Of a stretch of 64,000 nt of DNA, positions 23,870 to 57,254 are shown in pieces. The notes under the pieces are model-generated. The model made no database searches, was not told where the DNA came from, and was given only the letters and a program-made list of their open reading frames with translations. The stretch is from Variovorax dokdonensis (GTDB taxonomy: Bacteria > Pseudomonadota > Gammaproteobacteria > Burkholderiales > Burkholderiaceae_C): positions 682,001-746,000 of the forward strand of contig NZ_JASZYV010000001.1 of the NCBI RefSeq assembly GCF_030316895.1, written 5' to 3'. The translations under genes were made by a program, and so were the position numbers. The number at the start of each line of letters is the position of its first letter. The first letter of the stretch is position 1.

Positions 23870-24640
23870 ATGACTGAAACCATCCTCGACGTCCGGGGCA
23901 TTTCCAAGCGCTTCGGCGGCCTGCAAGCCCTGTCTGACGTCGGCATCACCATCCAGCGTGGCCAGGTCTACGGCCTGATCGGCCCCAACGGTGCCGGCAA
24001 GACCACGTTCTTCAACGTCATCACGGGCCTGTACACGCCAGACAGCGGCACCTTCCAGCTCGGCGGCAAGCCCTACACGCCCAGCGCGGTCCATGAGGTT
24101 GCCAAGGCCGGCATCGCCCGCACGTTTCAGAACATCCGGCTGTTCGCCGACATGACGGCGCTGGAGAACGTCATGGTGGGCCGCCACGTGCGTACGCATT
24201 CCGGCGTGTTGGGCGCGGTGCTTCGCACCAAGTCCTTCAAGGCCGAGGAAGAGGCGATTGCCGAGCGCGCACACCAACTGCTCGAATACGTGGGTGTCGG
24301 CCACTACGCCGACTACAAGGCACGCACGCTCAGCTACGGCGACCAGCGCCGGCTGGAGATTGCACGCGCCCTGGCGACCGATCCGCAACTCATCGCCCTG
24401 GACGAGCCCGCCGCCGGCATGAATGCCACCGAAAAGATGCAATTGCGCGAGCTGATCGACCGCATTCGCAACGACAACCGCACCATCTTGCTGATCGAGC
24501 ACGATGTGAAGCTGGTCATGGGGCTCTGCGACCGGGTCACGGTGCTCGACTACGGCAAGCAGATCGCCGAAGGCACGCCCGCGGACGTACAGAAGAACGA
24601 AAAAGTGATCGAGGCCTACCTCGGCACCGGAGGGCATTGA
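23870..24640 (+). CDS. livG: LIV-type ABC transporter ATPase LivG
   Basis: A 256-residue cytoplasmic ATPase. Walker A is GPNGAGKT, the signature LSYGDQRRLEIARAL is of the canonical LivG type, Walker B is LIALDEPAAGMN, and the switch histidine is in LIEHDVKLVM. It is third in the livHMGF operon, 3 bases before livF. This intact copy is a useful comparison for the degenerate LivG part of the fused transporter at 54693. Confidence 0.95.
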   Translation: MTETILDVRGISKRFGGLQALSDVGITIQRGQVYGLIGPNGAGKTTFFNVITGLYTPDSGTFQLGGKPYTPSAVHEVAKAGIARTFQNIRLFADMTALENVMVGRHVRTHSGVLGAVLRTKSFKAEEEAIAERAHQLLEYVGVGHYADYKARTLSYGDQRRLEIARALATDPQLIALDEPAAGMNATEKMQLRELIDRIRNDNRTILLIEHDVKLVMGLCDRVTVLDYGKQIAEGTPADVQKNEKVIEAYLGTGGH

Positions 24641-51445: not shown

Positions 51446-52387
51446 TCAGGCGTTGGAGGTGGGAAGGCCCGAGCTTGCCACAGGCTCCTCGTGCACCTGT
51501 GCGGCATGCGCGCAGATGGCCCCTGGGGTGGCGAACCAGATCCGGCCCGCATCGCGCAGCCTCGCCAGGTGTTGCAGCGCGCGCCGGAGATGCCGCAGCC
51601 GGTAGGGCTGGCCGACGATGTAGGGATGCAGCGCCAGGCCCATCACCAGGGCCTGGCCGTGCGACTGTTCCACCATCTCGTCGGCGTTGTCGATCACCAT
51701 CTGCGCAAAGTCCTTGGCGTCCATCTGGCGCGCGATGATCATCGGGATGTCGTTGAGCTCCTGCGGATAGGGCATCGACCACAAGGTGCGGCCGCTGCGC
51801 GTTCGCATGGGCACGGGCCGGTCGTCGTGCGCCCAGTTGAGGCTGTAGCTGTAGCCGGCCTCGGCCAGCAGGTCGGGCGTGAGGCGGCTTTCCGATATCC
51901 AGGGAGACAGCCAGCCTTGCGGGGCGGTTCCGCCTTCCGCCTCGATGCGTTCGCGGCAATGCACGAGCAGCGCGGCTTCGTCGGGTTCGTCCAGGTCGGC
52001 CTGCCGCACCGAATTGCTGTGGCCGTGGCCCACGAGTTCATCGCCACGCGCTGCACAGGCTGCGATGAGTTCGGGGCAGTGGTCGTACAGGGCCGTGTTC
52101 AGCAGGGTGGCCGCCGGCAGGCCGAGGCTGTCGAACAGTTCGAGGCAGCGCCATGCGCCAACCCGGTTGCCGTACTCGCGCCACGAATAGTTCAGCACGT
52201 CCGGGTGCGGATGCGCGGGGCCGATCATGGCGCCCAGCCCCTCGCCGAACGCGAAGTGCTCCAGGTTGAAGCCCAGGTACACCGCCAGCCGCGCGCCGCC
52301 AGGCCAGTCGTGGTCGATGTGCCGATGAATGGGCTGGTAGTCGAAACGTCCGTGATGCGCCAGGGGCGCGAAGGTGCGTGCAGGCAT
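51446..52387 (-). CDS. Polysaccharide-deacetylase/PuuE-like hydrolase
   Basis: A 313-residue protein of the NodB/polysaccharide-deacetylase fold. REYGNRVGAWRCLELFDSLG (about residues 79-98) and GDELVGHGHSNS resemble the allantoinase PuuE branch, whose members hydrolyse small cyclic amides rather than polysaccharide. No signal peptide is seen with the ATG at 52387 (MPARTFAPLAHHG); starts further upstream run into the regulatory region. It forms an operon with a GntR regulator and faces an amino-acid/amide ABC transporter. This suggests intracellular hydrolysis of an imported nitrogen compound (inference). Confidence 0.85.
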   Translation of the reverse strand: MPARTFAPLAHHGRFDYQPIHRHIDHDWPGGARLAVYLGFNLEHFAFGEGLGAMIGPAHPHPDVLNYSWREYGNRVGAWRCLELFDSLGLPAATLLNTALYDHCPELIAACAARGDELVGHGHSNSVRQADLDEPDEAALLVHCRERIEAEGGTAPQGWLSPWISESRLTPDLLAEAGYSYSLNWAHDDRPVPMRTRSGRTLWSMPYPQELNDIPMIIARQMDAKDFAQMVIDNADEMVEQSHGQALVMGLALHPYIVGQPYRLRHLRRALQHLARLRDAGRIWFATPGAICAHAAQVHEEPVASSGLPTSNA

Positions 52388-52481
52388 AGGTTGGGGCGGC
52401 GATGAATCCAGTCTGGTGCGCGGCGCCACAAGACAGTGCATGAGCAGCGCGGTGCTTTCGAGTTTGCAAGACGCGTGCCGA

Positions 52482-52528
52482 TTGTTGACAAGAACTGGAT
52501 CGCAATGTCCACCAGATATTGTGAACAT
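52482..52528. promoter_or_regulatory. Two putative GntR/FCD operators
   Basis: TTGTTGACAA (52482-52491) and TTGTGAACAT (52519-52528) share the TTGT-NN-ACA(A/T) pattern typical of FCD-type GntR sites, 37 bases apart. They lie between the divergent deacetylase-GntR operon and the transporter operon. Confidence 0.5.
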
Positions 52529-52589
52529 TGGTGACACTGGCACGGCCCTTGCAAACCTTCCGAGTTCCATTCAACCGGAGGAATCTGCC

Positions 52590-53774
52590 ATGTCCATGCT
52601 TGCACGCCGCACCCTGATCTCCAGCGCCATTGCGCTGGCCGCCGCGACCCTGTCTGGTGCCGCACTTGCGGCTGACACCATCAAGATCGGCCTGGTCACG
52701 GCCATGTCGGGCCAGTCTGCCTTGGCGGGCGAGGCCATCAGCCGCGGCATGCAGGTGGCGATCGACGAGGTCAACGCCAAGGGCGGCCTGCTCGGCGGCC
52801 GCAAGCTGGAACTGGTGCGCCGCGACGACGAAGCCAATCCCGCCAAGGGCGTCATCGCCGCGCGCGAACTGATCTTCAAGGAAAAGGTGGCGGTGCTCTT
52901 CGGCGGGCTCGATACGCCGGTTTCGATGGCCATCGTGCCTTTGGCCAACCAGGAGAAGGTGCCCTTCATGGGTCCCTGGGCGGCTGGCACCGGCATCACC
53001 AAGAACAGCGGCAATCCGAACTTCGCCTTCCGCGTGTCGGCCATGGACGAGATCGTCGACGTGGCGATGCTCCAGTACGCGCAGAAGAACTTCAAGACGA
53101 CCAAGCCCGGCTTGATCCTGGTCAACAACCCCTGGGGCGAATCGAACGAGAAGGGCCTGAAGGCCGCGATGGCTGCCAAGGGCGTCACGCCGGCGGGCAT
53201 CGAGAAATACGAAGGCAACGACCTCGACATGGTGCCGCAGCTCACGCGCCTGAAGGCGGCCGGTGCCGACACGCTGTTCCTGGTGGGCAACGTCGGCCCC
53301 TCGGCGCAGGTGGTGAAGTCGCTCGACCGCATGGGCTGGAAGGTGCCGGTGGTGTCGCACTGGGGCCCTGCCGGCGGACGCTTCTCCGAACTGGCCGGCC
53401 CGAACGCCAAGGAAGTGCATTTCGTGCAGACCTACAGCTTCTTCGGCAAGCAGTCGCCGGTCGGCCAGAAGGTCGTGAAGGAGCTGATGGCCAAGTACCC
53501 GGCGATCAAGGGCCCGGACGACATCACGCCCGCCGTGGGCGTGGCCAATGCGTATGACGCCGTGCACCTGTCTGCGCTGGCGATTGCCGCGGCCGGTTCC
53601 ACCGAAGGCGATGCGGTGCGCCAGGGCTTCTACAAGATCGGCCGCTACGAAGGCCTGATCAAGACCTACGACAAGCCCTTCACGCCGGACCAGCACGACG
53701 CGCTGGGCCCGAACGACTACGTGTGGGCGCAGTTCATCGACAACCGCATCGTGCCGGTGGCCACGGCCAACTGA
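52590..53774 (+). CDS. LIV-type ABC transporter substrate-binding protein
   Basis: A 394-residue periplasmic type I binding protein. A signal peptide (residues 1-28, cleavage ALA-AD) is followed by IKIGLVTAMSGQSALAGEA and the two-lobed Leu/Ile/Val-binding fold (DDEANPAKGVIAARELI). GGAGGAAT lies 8 bases before the ATG at 52590. It opens the operon with livH-like and the fused LivMGF-like genes. The ligand could be a branched-chain amino acid, amide or related compound; the adjacent PuuE-like hydrolase hints at the latter. Confidence 0.93.
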   Translation: MSMLARRTLISSAIALAAATLSGAALAADTIKIGLVTAMSGQSALAGEAISRGMQVAIDEVNAKGGLLGGRKLELVRRDDEANPAKGVIAARELIFKEKVAVLFGGLDTPVSMAIVPLANQEKVPFMGPWAAGTGITKNSGNPNFAFRVSAMDEIVDVAMLQYAQKNFKTTKPGLILVNNPWGESNEKGLKAAMAAKGVTPAGIEKYEGNDLDMVPQLTRLKAAGADTLFLVGNVGPSAQVVKSLDRMGWKVPVVSHWGPAGGRFSELAGPNAKEVHFVQTYSFFGKQSPVGQKVVKELMAKYPAIKGPDDITPAVGVANAYDAVHLSALAIAAAGSTEGDAVRQGFYKIGRYEGLIKTYDKPFTPDQHDALGPNDYVWAQFIDNRIVPVATAN

Positions 53775-53817: not shown

Positions 53818-54696
53818 ATGGAATGGATATCGCCTCTGCTCGCCGGCTTCGGCCTGGGCAGCATGTATGGCCTGATGGCCCTTGGCTTTCATGTCACCTA
53901 CGCCGTGTCGGGCACGGTCAACTTCGCCCAGGGCAGTTCGATGATGCTCGGCGCGGTGCTGACCTTCGCCTTCGCCCAGACGCTGGGCTGGCCGATGCCC
54001 CTGGCCATCGCGCTGGCCTTGGCGCTGTGCGCGCTTTATGGGCTGGTGGTGGAGTTCCTGGCGGTACGGCCGTTCGCCAGCCGTGGCTCGAATGCGTGGC
54101 TCATTGCCACCGTGGCACTGGGCATCGTGCTCGACAACCTGGTGCTGTTCACCTTCGGAAAGGAGCCACGCAGCCTGCCTTCGCCGTTGGCCGTGTCGCC
54201 GCTGTCGGTGGGCGGGCAGGGGCTGGGCGTGTACCCGCTCCAGGTGCTGATTCCGGTGGTGGGGCTGGTGTTGGCGGCCGCGCTGCACTTTGCCGCGCGC
54301 CGCACGCGCTGGGGCGTGGCCATGCTGGCCGTCGTGCAGAACCGTGACGCGGCACGTCTCATGGGCATTCCCATCAAGCGGGTGGTGGCGCTGGCGTTCG
54401 CGCTTTCGGCGCTCTTCGCGGGCGTGGCCGGCGTGCTGATCGCGCCACTGTTCAACGTCAACGCCGACATGGGCACCGTGTTCGGCCTCAAGGCGTTCGC
54501 GGTCGCCATCCTCGGCGGCATCGGGAGCGCCTGGGGTGTGATGGCGGCTGGGTTGATCTTCGGCATGCTCGAAGCCGGCATCACCAGCACGCTGGGTTCG
54601 GGCTACACGCAGATCCTGAGTTTTTCGCTGGTGATCGTGGCGCTGGCGCTGCGTCCCAATGGCCTGTTCGGACGGGCAGAGGTCAAGAAGGTATGA
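53818..54696 (+). CDS. LIV-type ABC transporter permease (LivH-like)
   Basis: A 292-residue membrane permease. MYGLMALGFHVTYAVSGTVNFAQGS and VFGLKAFAVAILGGIGSAWG are the LivH signatures. It starts 43 bases after the binding-protein gene. Its stop overlaps the ATG of the fusion protein (ATGA at 54693-54696), so the two subunits are translationally coupled. Confidence 0.93.
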   Translation: MEWISPLLAGFGLGSMYGLMALGFHVTYAVSGTVNFAQGSSMMLGAVLTFAFAQTLGWPMPLAIALALALCALYGLVVEFLAVRPFASRGSNAWLIATVALGIVLDNLVLFTFGKEPRSLPSPLAVSPLSVGGQGLGVYPLQVLIPVVGLVLAAALHFAARRTRWGVAMLAVVQNRDAARLMGIPIKRVVALAFALSALFAGVAGVLIAPLFNVNADMGTVFGLKAFAVAILGGIGSAWGVMAAGLIFGMLEAGITSTLGSGYTQILSFSLVIVALALRPNGLFGRAEVKKV

Positions 54697-57254
54697 GCGT
54701 CGTGATGCCCATGGTCGATCCAACTGCGTCGCGGCTGCGCACCTCACCGGTTCGCCTGGGACTGGGTACCGCGGCGCAGATCGGCTGCGTGCTCGCGCTG
54801 CTGGCGGCCGGCCTGGCGGCGGCGGGCACCGTCAATGGCTACTACGTCTTCGTGCTGGCCAATGTGGCGTTGTTCGCCATCGTCGGCATCGGGCTGAACG
54901 TCCTTCAGGGCCTGACGGGGCAGGTTTCGTTCGGCCATGTGGGCTTCTATGCCATCGGGGCCTACACGGTCGGCATCCTGATGACGAAGGCCGGTTGGAG
55001 CTTCTGGGCGGCATGGCCTGCGGCGGCGGTGATCTCCGGCGCCGTGGGCGCGCTGCTGGCCTTGCCCGCGTTGCGCGTCAAAGGGCCTTATCTCGCGATG
55101 GTGACCATTGCCTTCGGCTTCATCGTCGAGCACGGCGTGATCGAGATGGGTTCGCTCACTGGCGGGCAGAACGGGATCATGGGCATTGCCGCGCCATCCC
55201 TGGCCGGGCTCGTGACCGGAGAGCGCGCGGTCGCGATGCTGGCCGTGCTGGCCGCCGGCGTGGCGCTGGCGCTGTATGCGTGGCTGTCGCGCGGCACCTG
55301 GGGCGCCGCGATGCGCGCAGTGCGCGACAGCGAGACGGCGGCCGAATCGATCGGCATTCATCCGCTGCAGGTGAAGACGGTGGCCTTTGCGTTGTCGGCG
55401 GTGGCTGCGGGCCTGGCCGGCGGGCTGTCCGCGCCGCTGTCGGGCTTCATTGCGCCGAGCAGCTTCGGCTTCGGCCAATCCATCCTCTTCGTGCTGGTGG
55501 TGGTGCTCGGAGGCGCGGGCGCGGTCTCGGGGCCGATCATCGGGGCGCTGGTGGTGGCCTTGCTGCCCGAGCTTCTGGCGGGGCTGGAGGAATACCGGCT
55601 GCTGTTTTTCGGCGCCTTGCTGCTGGTGGTGCTCTGGGCCGCGCCGGACGGGGCCATCGGCCTGTGGCGCAGGCTGCGTCCTGGCGCGCCGCGCGGGCAC
55701 GAATCGACGCCACCGGTGACACCCCTGGGCGAGGCCGGCAGGCTGCTGGGGCAGGGCGTCGGCGCATCGCTCTCGGCGCAGTCGCTGACGATGCACTTCG
55801 GCGGCGTGCGCGCTGTCAGCGACCTCGGCTTTGCAGCGCCATCGGGCGCCATCACCAGCCTGATCGGGCCCAACGGTGCCGGCAAGACCACGGCGCTGAA
55901 CATGCTCAGCGGCTTCTATGTGCCGACCGGTGGCAGCTTCAGGCTGGGCACTGACGAACTCCAGGGCCTGGCGGCGCATGCCATCGCGAGGCGTGGCGTG
56001 GCGCGCACTTATCAAAGCTCGCAACTCTTCGCCACCTTGGGTGTGGAGGACAACGTTGCACTGGCCGCCAGCCGGGGCGCGCTCGGCCCGCTGTTCGGCA
56101 CCGGCCTGTTCGGCGCCGCAGCCGTGCGCGAGCATGCCCGGATTCTGTTGGCCTTTTGCGGCTATCGCGGCCCGCTCGACATTCCCGCCGCGGATTTGCC
56201 GCATGTGGATCGCCGTCTGGTGGAGATCGCCCGCGCCTTGGCCACGCGGCCACAGATGCTCCTGCTCGACGAGCCCGCCGCCGGCCTCTCGCGCGAAGAC
56301 AAGGAGCGGCTGGGCGAACTGCTTGAACGGATTGCGCACTCGGGCATCGGCGTGCTGGTGGTCGAGCACGACATGGAATTGGTGATGGGCATCTCGCAGC
56401 AGGTGGTGGTGCTCGACGCCGGCCAGCATCTGGCCGCTGGCACGCCATCGCAGGTGCAGGCGGACCCGCGCGTGCGGCAGGCTTACCTCGGCGAGGCGAT
56501 GGGCGGGCCCGGCCAAGCGGCGCGCGAGCGCGTTGCGCAGGCCGAGCAGGCGGAGATCCTGGGCGTCGGCGCGCTGGTCACCGGCTACGGCGCCGAGCCG
56601 GTGCTGCACGGCATCGACTTGCAGGTGCGTCGCGGCCAGGTGGTGGCGCTGCTGGGGGCCAACGGCAGTGGCAAGTCAACGCTGATGCGTTCGCTCGCCG
56701 GCCTGCATCGGCCGGTGCAGGGCGGCATTCACTTCGATGGCAAGGACCTCACGCGCATGTCGGCCGAGCGCATCGTCTCGCGCGGCCTGGTGCTGGTGCC
56801 GGAAGGGCGGCAAGTGTTCCCCGAACTGAGCGTGATGGACAACATCCGTCTGGGCGCCTTCCTGTCGCCACAAGATCGCGAAGCGCGGGCGCAGCAGATG
56901 TTGCAGCGCTTCCCGCGTTTGGCCGAGCGCAAGGACCATCGCGCCGGTCTGCTGTCGGGCGGCGAACAGCAGATGCTGGCCATTGCGCGCGGACTGATGG
57001 CGCGCCCGAGCATCCTGCTGCTGGACGAACCGTCGCTGGGCCTGGCGCCCAAGATCATCGCGGAGCTGTTCGAGGCGCTCGATGCATTGCGCGCCGAAGG
57101 CATGACCATCCTGCTCGTCGACCAGATGGCCAGCCTGGCCCTGGCGCTGGCCGATCGGGCCTACGTGATCGAAGGCGGGCGGATCGTTGCCGAAGGAACT
57201 GCGGCCGAGATTGCCGCGGATGATTCGCTGGCGAAGGCTTATCTGGGGGCTTAG
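54693..57254 (+). CDS. Fused LivM-LivG-LivF ABC transporter protein
   Basis: An 853-residue single protein combining three normally separate subunits. Residues ~25-325 are a LivM permease (GLNVLQGLTGQVSFGHVGFY). Residues ~355-600 form a LivG ATPase (Walker A GPNGAGKT, Walker B LLLDEPAAGL, switch VVEHDMELVM). Residues ~620-853 form a LivF ATPase (Walker A GANGSGKS, signature LSGGEQQML, Walker B LLLDEPSLGL). In the LivG part the signature LSYGxQRR has become LPHVDRRLVEIARAL. No stop or frameshift separates the parts. With LivH and the binding protein it completes a transporter from only three genes. Confidence 0.93.
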   Translation: MSVVMPMVDPTASRLRTSPVRLGLGTAAQIGCVLALLAAGLAAAGTVNGYYVFVLANVALFAIVGIGLNVLQGLTGQVSFGHVGFYAIGAYTVGILMTKAGWSFWAAWPAAAVISGAVGALLALPALRVKGPYLAMVTIAFGFIVEHGVIEMGSLTGGQNGIMGIAAPSLAGLVTGERAVAMLAVLAAGVALALYAWLSRGTWGAAMRAVRDSETAAESIGIHPLQVKTVAFALSAVAAGLAGGLSAPLSGFIAPSSFGFGQSILFVLVVVLGGAGAVSGPIIGALVVALLPELLAGLEEYRLLFFGALLLVVLWAAPDGAIGLWRRLRPGAPRGHESTPPVTPLGEAGRLLGQGVGASLSAQSLTMHFGGVRAVSDLGFAAPSGAITSLIGPNGAGKTTALNMLSGFYVPTGGSFRLGTDELQGLAAHAIARRGVARTYQSSQLFATLGVEDNVALAASRGALGPLFGTGLFGAAAVREHARILLAFCGYRGPLDIPAADLPHVDRRLVEIARALATRPQMLLLDEPAAGLSREDKERLGELLERIAHSGIGVLVVEHDMELVMGISQQVVVLDAGQHLAAGTPSQVQADPRVRQAYLGEAMGGPGQAARERVAQAEQAEILGVGALVTGYGAEPVLHGIDLQVRRGQVVALLGANGSGKSTLMRSLAGLHRPVQGGIHFDGKDLTRMSAERIVSRGLVLVPEGRQVFPELSVMDNIRLGAFLSPQDREARAQQMLQRFPRLAERKDHRAGLLSGGEQQMLAIARGLMARPSILLLDEPSLGLAPKIIAELFEALDALRAEGMTILLVDQMASLALALADRAYVIEGGRIVAEGTAAEIAADDSLAKAYLGA

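Follow-up and report, generated by a model that had tools for sequence, protein, structure and literature searches.

In a 64,000-nt window of the Variovorax dokdonensis contig NZ_JASZYV010000001.1, the stretch analysed here and the reference for all coordinates below, the gene livMGF encodes LivM, LivG and LivF as a single chain of 853 aa with a degenerate signature in its LivG part. This fusion is real and conserved, and it is a variant of a known importer type. We suggest, with a probability of roughly 60%, that livKH-livMGF is a working LIV/HAA importer in which one composite ATP site (site 1, LivG Walker motifs with the LivF signature) hydrolyses ATP and the other (site 2, LivF Walker motifs with the LivG signature) holds ATP as a pivot. 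The genes, domains and residues concerned are the following:

52590..53774, + strand, livK-type periplasmic binding protein (Peripla_BP_6, 189.6 bits)
53818..54696, + strand, livH permease, the partner transmembrane domain; its stop codon overlaps the livMGF ATG by 4 bases
54693..57254, + strand, livMGF, single-chain LivM-LivG-LivF, 853 aa, ATG start, no internal stop
54846..55634, + strand, LivM permease domain, residues 52-314 (BPD_transp_2; the AlphaFold2 model shows helices)
55770..56498, + strand, LivG ATPase domain, residues 360-602 (NF008449 stretch 360-602; AlphaFold2 model)
56013..56015, + strand, LivG Q-loop glutamine Q441, consensus site (alignment)
56196..56216, + strand, degenerate LivG signature L502-R508, LPHVDRR, which in a head-to-tail dimer should lie opposite the Walker motifs of LivF
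56367..56369, + strand, LivG switch histidine H559, consensus site (alignment)
56559..57248, + strand, LivF ATPase domain, residues 623-852 (profile matches; AlphaFold2 model)
56802..56804, + strand, LivF Q-loop position E704, Glu replacing Gln, degenerate site (alignment)
56952..56972, + strand, LivF signature L754-Q760, LSGGEQQ, canonical, consensus site (alignment)
57123..57125, + strand, LivF switch position Q811, Gln replacing His, degenerate site (alignment)

The first-pass annotation had described three Liv subunits in one chain, and the intact open reading frame (ORF), in which Pfam recognizes one BPD_transp_2 domain (52-314) and two ABC_tran stretches, bears this out. Walker A, Walker B (D526, E527) and the switch histidine are present in the LivG part, as it had said, and its readings of the signature, LPHVDRR here and LSYGDQR(R) in the livG at 23870, were both reproduced. 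When L-S-Y-G-D-Q-R and L-P-H-V-D-R-R are aligned column by column, the D and the final R are retained, while the signature loses its S, replaced by P, and its G, replaced by V. Serine is absent from 110 of 151 other LivGs, E. coli LAYGDQR among them; the rare change is that of G to V at position 4, where 141 of the 151 have the glycine. The LivF part had been called canonical, which is right for LSGGEQQ and wrong for the Q-loop (Glu704) and the switch (Gln811), although most LivFs sampled have the same residues there. It keeps the Walker A K661 and the catalytic Walker B E779. The deviating LivG signature and the deviating switch residue belong to the same composite site, and from signature, Q-loop and switch residues we also predict the one normal and one impaired site that had been proposed, with reduced hydrolysis probable at site 2.

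The fusion and its signature are found well beyond Variovorax. From 456 confirmed stretches in a scan of the genome collection, 80 loci were kept, and 58 of them have a LivG with 48% identity or more to the query. All 58 carry L[PAS][HF]VD[RK]R, and M, G and F share one frame in 57, the LivF of L063 being in another frame. The remaining 22 loci all have glycine at position 4; one of these is a fused M-G-F (L068) and two have M-G in one frame. The hosts of the scan loci include Variovorax, Acidovorax, Hydrogenophaga, Herbaspirillum, Cupriavidus, Alloalcanivorax, Roseibium, Rhodobacterales, Hyphomicrobiales and two cyanobacteria. The signature V is found across beta-, gamma- and alphaproteobacteria and cyanobacteria. 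Clade members are present in 11 of 299 genomes of an evenly drawn phylum sample (counting rows of 50% identity or higher, with three candidates per genome scored) and in 11 of 300 of an evenly drawn order sample, the window genome included in both. They were found in 10 of 98 genomes of the genus g82, and in a sample around the cyanobacterial genome G299 only in G299 itself (1 of 98).

The scan and the whole-genome searches together gave 84 distinct clade proteins: 75 with VD in the signature, 1 with ID (L283) and 8 with GE. The second signature glycine is absent from 76 of them (75 V, 1 I), and all three domains are in one frame in 83, including L283, whose LivF is cut by a contig end. A search for other single-chain LivMGF proteins and an alignment of their signatures, as the first-pass annotation had proposed, has in this way extended both the fusion and the glycine loss to most of the clade. 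Homologues with an intact signature, which it had named as a point that could overturn its reading, are limited to the eight proteins with GE (L125, L268-L274), all from g82 and with the signature L[PS]HGEKR; the g82 sample also has two non-GE members (LAHVDLR and LPHVDRR). No sign was seen of the sequencing error that it had also considered. V505, D506 and R508 are invariant in an alignment of 45 rows with a mean column identity of 65%, and most clade members keep V and R/K in the signature, with L283 having an I for the V and L267 an L at the R/K position. In six pairwise comparisons of the whole protein with relatives, nonsynonymous divergence (dN, 0.15-0.25) is far below synonymous divergence (dS, 0.63-0.87), and the V and D codons differ synonymously among the 17 sequences examined. 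livMGF is under purifying selection. Chance and sequencing error are excluded because of the conservation across phyla, the synonymous variation of the V and D codons and the low dN; with an intact frame, 84 distinct proteins and a dN/dS well below 1, we dismiss a sequencing error or a pseudogene as practically impossible.

The asymmetry seems to run through most LIV pairs sampled and is broader than the first-pass annotation saw. We compared 218 distinct LivG/LivF pairs (23 from the window genome, 70 from the genome collection, 124 from whole-genome searches and 1 from Escherichia coli), a sample biased to relatives of the queries and not a census. At site 1, the LivG Walker A Lys, Walker B DE, Q-loop Gln and switch His and the LivF signature SGG are all present in 218 of 218. 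At site 2, the Walker A Lys of LivF is kept in 215 of 218 pairs. Its Q-loop residue is Glu in 190, Gln in 22, Asp in 4 and Gly in 2 (Gln absent from 196), and its switch residue is Gln in 205, His in 8, Lys in 3, Arg in 1 and Ser in 1 (His absent from 210). The counts of 218 pairs, 8 switch His and 22 Q-loop Gln still contain L185, whose LivF partner resembles a polar-amino-acid ATPase (GIVFQQFNLFPH) and is probably mis-paired. Serine at position 2 of the LivG signature is present in 42 pairs and missing from 176; among the 151 non-VD LivGs it occurs in 41, the others having P (63), A (38), T (7), V (1) or N (1). Glycine at position 4 separates the groups: it is present in 141 of the 151 non-VD pairs and in none of the 67 VD pairs. 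All 67 VD pairs keep Walker A Lys and Walker B DE in both nucleotide-binding domains (NBDs), Gln and His in LivG and SGG in LivF, and in all 67 the LivF Q-loop residue is Glu and the switch residue Gln. Reduced to 91 representatives (60% redundancy), the sample has LivF SGG in 91, LivG His in 91, LivF switch Gln in 83 and Q-loop Glu in 72. By alignment, the solved LivF 1ji0 has the same Q-loop Glu and switch Gln, and so does E. coli LivF, next to a LivG with LAYGDQR. Judged by these motifs, the fused VD clade is the extreme end of a trend that covers most of the family sampled. No report of an ATP-site asymmetry in LIV importers was found in our literature searches, which covered open-licence papers; PMC6703430, found in a search on LivG/LivF nucleotide-binding domains, concerns LptB in the part available, and the part of PMC2821768 consulted holds no LivMGF fusion.

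Twin-NBD ATPases of the RbsA type have the same polarity, their first NBD, with a loose signature, standing for LivG and the second for LivF. In 9 distinct proteins, E. coli RbsA and MglA included, the switch His is present in NBD1 (9/9) and not in NBD2 (0/9), SGG in NBD2 (9/9) and not in NBD1 (0/9), and the NBD2 Q-loop residue is Glu in 9/9. The permeases of RbsA and MglA belong to the same PF02653 family. Unlike LivMGF, whose LivF part keeps K661 and in this departs from the RbsA type, none of the nine keeps the Walker A Lys of NBD2, and E. coli RbsA is devoid of a permease domain (RbsC is separate) whereas LivMGF carries LivM. Since site 2 is off-consensus in most LIV pairs sampled and in the RbsA types checked, the view of the first-pass annotation that such asymmetry is unusual for an importer is not supported. 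The fixed 1:1:1 stoichiometry that it also singled out has little extra weight: each subunit is generally taken to be present once in a LIV importer, and LivM and LivG are in one frame in five further systems of the genome (L094, L097, L098, L099 and L101). Phylogenetic tests on the relation of the two types gave similar values for joining LivG with RbsA NBD1 and LivF with NBD2 (p-AU, from the approximately unbiased test, 0.435) and for the opposite grouping (0.422), and a free NBD tree joins LivG with LivF (support 92). Degenerate sites of RbsA and NupO were pointed out in PMC11466899, in the part consulted; the words 'LivF' and 'branched' are absent from its text.

Several other observations came from these comparisons. 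The window genome (5 Mb) contains 24 LivG-bearing LIV-type systems (loci L089-L116 and the window), and LivG signatures devoid of the glycine also occur in L098 (LNLHQRK), L109 (ITPSQQR) and L116 (LTYAEQR). L091, L105 and L112 are RbsA-like, with an NBD2 that has no Walker A Lys, Walker B DE or switch His but keeps LSGG. In L260 and L263, both from the Acidimicrobiales metagenome-assembled genome G302 (L075), LivG and LivF are in one frame with LSTG signatures, a LivF switch Gln and a LivF Q-loop Gly.

The nearest known system is the E. coli LIV-I/HAA importer LivKHMGF (b3454-b3458), with the same K-H-M-G-F order, the same domains and the same two LivF residues, a Q-loop Glu and a switch Gln; there, however, the chains are separate and LivG keeps the second glycine. 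In E. coli LptB a single chain bears both LSGGE and the switch His, unlike the split between LivG and LivF, and LptB of LptB2FGC pairs with itself. One consensus and one deviating site are likewise found in the heterodimeric exporters TAP, TM287/288, TmrAB and MsRv1273c/72c. In the last, a Gln at the switch position marks the degenerate site (PMC12038006, in the part seen), but the catalytic Glu of MsRv1273c is replaced by Asp whereas LivMGF, an importer, keeps it. The mycobacterial DppABCD/OppABCD are importers with both NBDs in one chain (PMC12136057, from the portion consulted), which we judge to be a different family; they also supply the best Foldseek matches of the LivMGF model.

An AlphaFold2 model of the query LivMGF with 44 orthologues has a mean pLDDT of 86 and a pTM of 0.77, with residues 1-22 and 601-609 below 50. 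The best Foldseek match is 8wdb_D, the twin-NBD chain of ATP-bound DppABCD (TMt 0.66, 537 columns, root-mean-square deviation (rmsd) 6.7), and from this match both NBDs would be placed roughly as a facing pair within one chain. For the LivF part the best match is 1ji0 (Z 35.0, rmsd 1.8, 236 aligned), with LptB as the next solved fold. No match to a solved chain was obtained for the LivM part at E up to 1. The Foldseek/VIA match lists are filled by NBDs and barely cover the permease domain.

On the reading we prefer, LivK would deliver the substrate to the permease pair of LivH and LivM, LivMGF presumably assembling with LivH so that both ATPases ride on the LivM chain, and the two NBDs would close head to tail on two ATPs. 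Site 1 (LivG Walker A/B, Q441 and H559 with LivF LSGGE) would hydrolyse its ATP, while site 2 (LivF Walker A/B, E704 and Q811 with LivG LPHVDRR) would retain ATP as a stable pivot, with slow hydrolysis or none. One ATP per cycle would then power transport, by analogy with asymmetric exporters. The pivot is modelled on TAP, in which, according to the part of PMC12422388 consulted, the degenerate site retains its ATP while ADP is seen at the consensus site.

Several results weigh against this reading. Many degenerate exporter sites have no catalytic Glu (PMC7756269; PMC7544095, both seen in part), unlike LivF, in which Walker B DE including this Glu is kept in 218 of 218 pairs, E779 among them; because both NBDs retain it, hydrolysis at a single site can only be inferred. 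MRP1 with Gln or Asn at the switch of its second site (NBS2) shows wild-type-like transport in the part of PMC7756269 available, so a Gln there need not abolish hydrolysis. The Q-loop Glu and the switch Gln might make up for one another, and a Q-loop Gln occurs together with a switch Gln in fifteen pairs. The eight HGEKR members of the clade have the signature glycine, the fused protein L137 combines a switch His with a Q-loop Glu and LPHGAKR, showing that the features are separable, and with its rmsd of 6.7 the modelled NBD pairing resembles that of a known dimer only roughly. A rival reading is a tolerated drift, in which LivG signatures are loose, V is one more accepted variant and both sites hydrolyse. 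The wide variation of LivG signatures, with serine in only 41 of 151 non-VD LivGs and 10 of these 151 also devoid of the glycine at position 4, and the retained LivF Glu speak for such drift. We still regard it as unlikely, though it is the most serious competitor, since the invariance of V505, D506 and R508 in the 45-row alignment, the presence of V from proteobacteria to cyanobacteria and an SGG never lost from LivF in 218 pairs speak against it. Less probable still is a new role for the PHVDRR loop, as a regulatory contact or in the binding of a ligand other than ATP at site 2. H/F-V-D-R/K-R is strongly conserved in most members (L267 and L283 being the exceptions), and in the predicted structure the signature helix begins at the same point of the motif in both domains (residue 504 in LivG, 756 in LivF). 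However, D and R are common in ordinary LivGs (LSYGDQR), which leaves only P/A-H-V and R507 as special, and no partner was found.

That fusing both NBDs into one chain itself lets one site decay is a question that PMC11466899, in the part consulted, poses for RbsA and NupO. The RbsA-type fused NBDs checked are degenerate and so is the fused LivMGF clade. We nevertheless consider this explanation very improbable, because 11 of 77 one-ORF LivG-LivF pairs keep the glycine at position 4 (66 have VD and a switch Gln, 7 the glycine and a switch His, 4 the glycine and a switch Gln) and separately encoded LivFs are mostly devoid of the switch His too. Six of the 11 form a second LivMGF clade (L129, L130, L133-L136; support 1.0), 35-37% identical to the query, in which LivG LSYGGQR, a LivF Q-loop Gln and a switch His occur together in 6/6. 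Two complete ATP sites are predicted for these proteins, so fusion alone does not cause degeneration, and as a sufficient cause it is weakened. The co-occurrence of three features on two domains fits one functional unit, as far as motifs can indicate; since the six rows are one clade, we claim no significance for it. Within the 151 non-VD pairs, the association of a LivF switch His with a LivG that keeps both S and G4 (Fisher, p 0.0046; 6/8 vs 34/143) is, for the same reason, not independent evidence. The seven fused rows with His do not form one clade in the LivG+LivF tree, their common ancestor spanning 14 rows, and L137 does not group exclusively with the second fused clade.

The 67 VD rows and L125 form one clade in the LivG+LivF tree (support 1.0), and 47 fused rows form one clade in a LivM+LivG+LivF tree built without the signature columns (SH-aLRT 99). 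The eight HGEKR rows sit inside the VD rows in the latter, a quick tree with long branches and no bootstrap, but a topology that unites the VD rows survives the test (p-AU 0.063). We considered the HGEKR proteins as an outside, ancestral lineage; their nesting among VD rows speaks against this, but the p-AU value allows it, and the glycine may have been lost before or after the fusion. The glycine of HGEKR is possibly a reversion.

If hydrolysis is confined to one composite site, the common view of two equal sites in LIV importers, which are numerous, is wrong. More tentatively, and in our opinion less probable than the opposite, all LIV/HAA importers including E. coli LivFG could be machines with a single catalytic site and the RbsA types could share their polarity; the pivot would be fixed in sequence in the fused clade, and the second fused clade would be a possible natural revertant with a rebuilt site 2. 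A natural graded series for a test exists: the VDRR clade and the HGEKR lineage can be set beside ordinary LivFG and the second fused clade, which is predicted to have a complete site 2. LivMGF would allow a clear test of single-site ATP consumption in such importers. As single chains, the VDRR-clade proteins permit mutation of either NBD on its own, with no mixed assemblies.

Profile matches assign the system to the LIV/HAA family. LivM (144.6 bits) and LivH (143.1 bits) are well above the BPD_transp_2 (PF02653) cut-off of 26.8, LivG- and LivF-type ATPases are recognized with best stretches 360-602 and 625-852 and BCA_ABC_TP_C above its cut-off, and the adjoining livK is a Leu/Ile/Val-type binding protein by its Peripla_BP_6 match. 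The E. coli-type equivalog cut-offs are missed (LivG 340.8 vs 362, LivF 302.7 vs 441) while the UrtE (323.1 vs 285.8) and LptB (279.4 vs 240) models are reached, so equivalog names do not settle the identity. A urea transporter UrtABCDE was rejected: UrtD (301.6, cut-off 304.1), UrtB (144, cut-off 250.3) and UrtA (58.5, cut-off 492.75) fail and UrtE alone passes.

The neighbours of 70 loci, among which L117 coincides with the window, were clustered from crude gene calls, with antisense ORFs in some clusters. A gamma-glutamyltransferase-like protein was found in 14 and a cytosine-deaminase-like amidohydrolase in 11. Five representatives match those families below the curated NCBIfam cut-offs, and the three given to Pfam pass the G_glu_transpept or Amidohydro_3 cut-offs. 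The gamma-glutamyltransferase-/cytosine-deaminase-like neighbours, and the gene divergent from livK in the window, are:

L015:7551-9497
L020:6961-8970
L053:7294-8574
L060:7014-8285
L126:3915-5177
51446..52570, - strand, polysaccharide-deacetylase-like, divergent (TIGR03212 88.6 bits, cut-off 424.6; PF01522 20.3, cut-off 23.1)

These genes hint, as a lead only, that livKH-livMGF takes up a nitrogen-rich compound rather than leucine. The weak resemblance of the 51446-52570 protein to the allantoinase PuuE is a possible clue to the substrate and no more than that.

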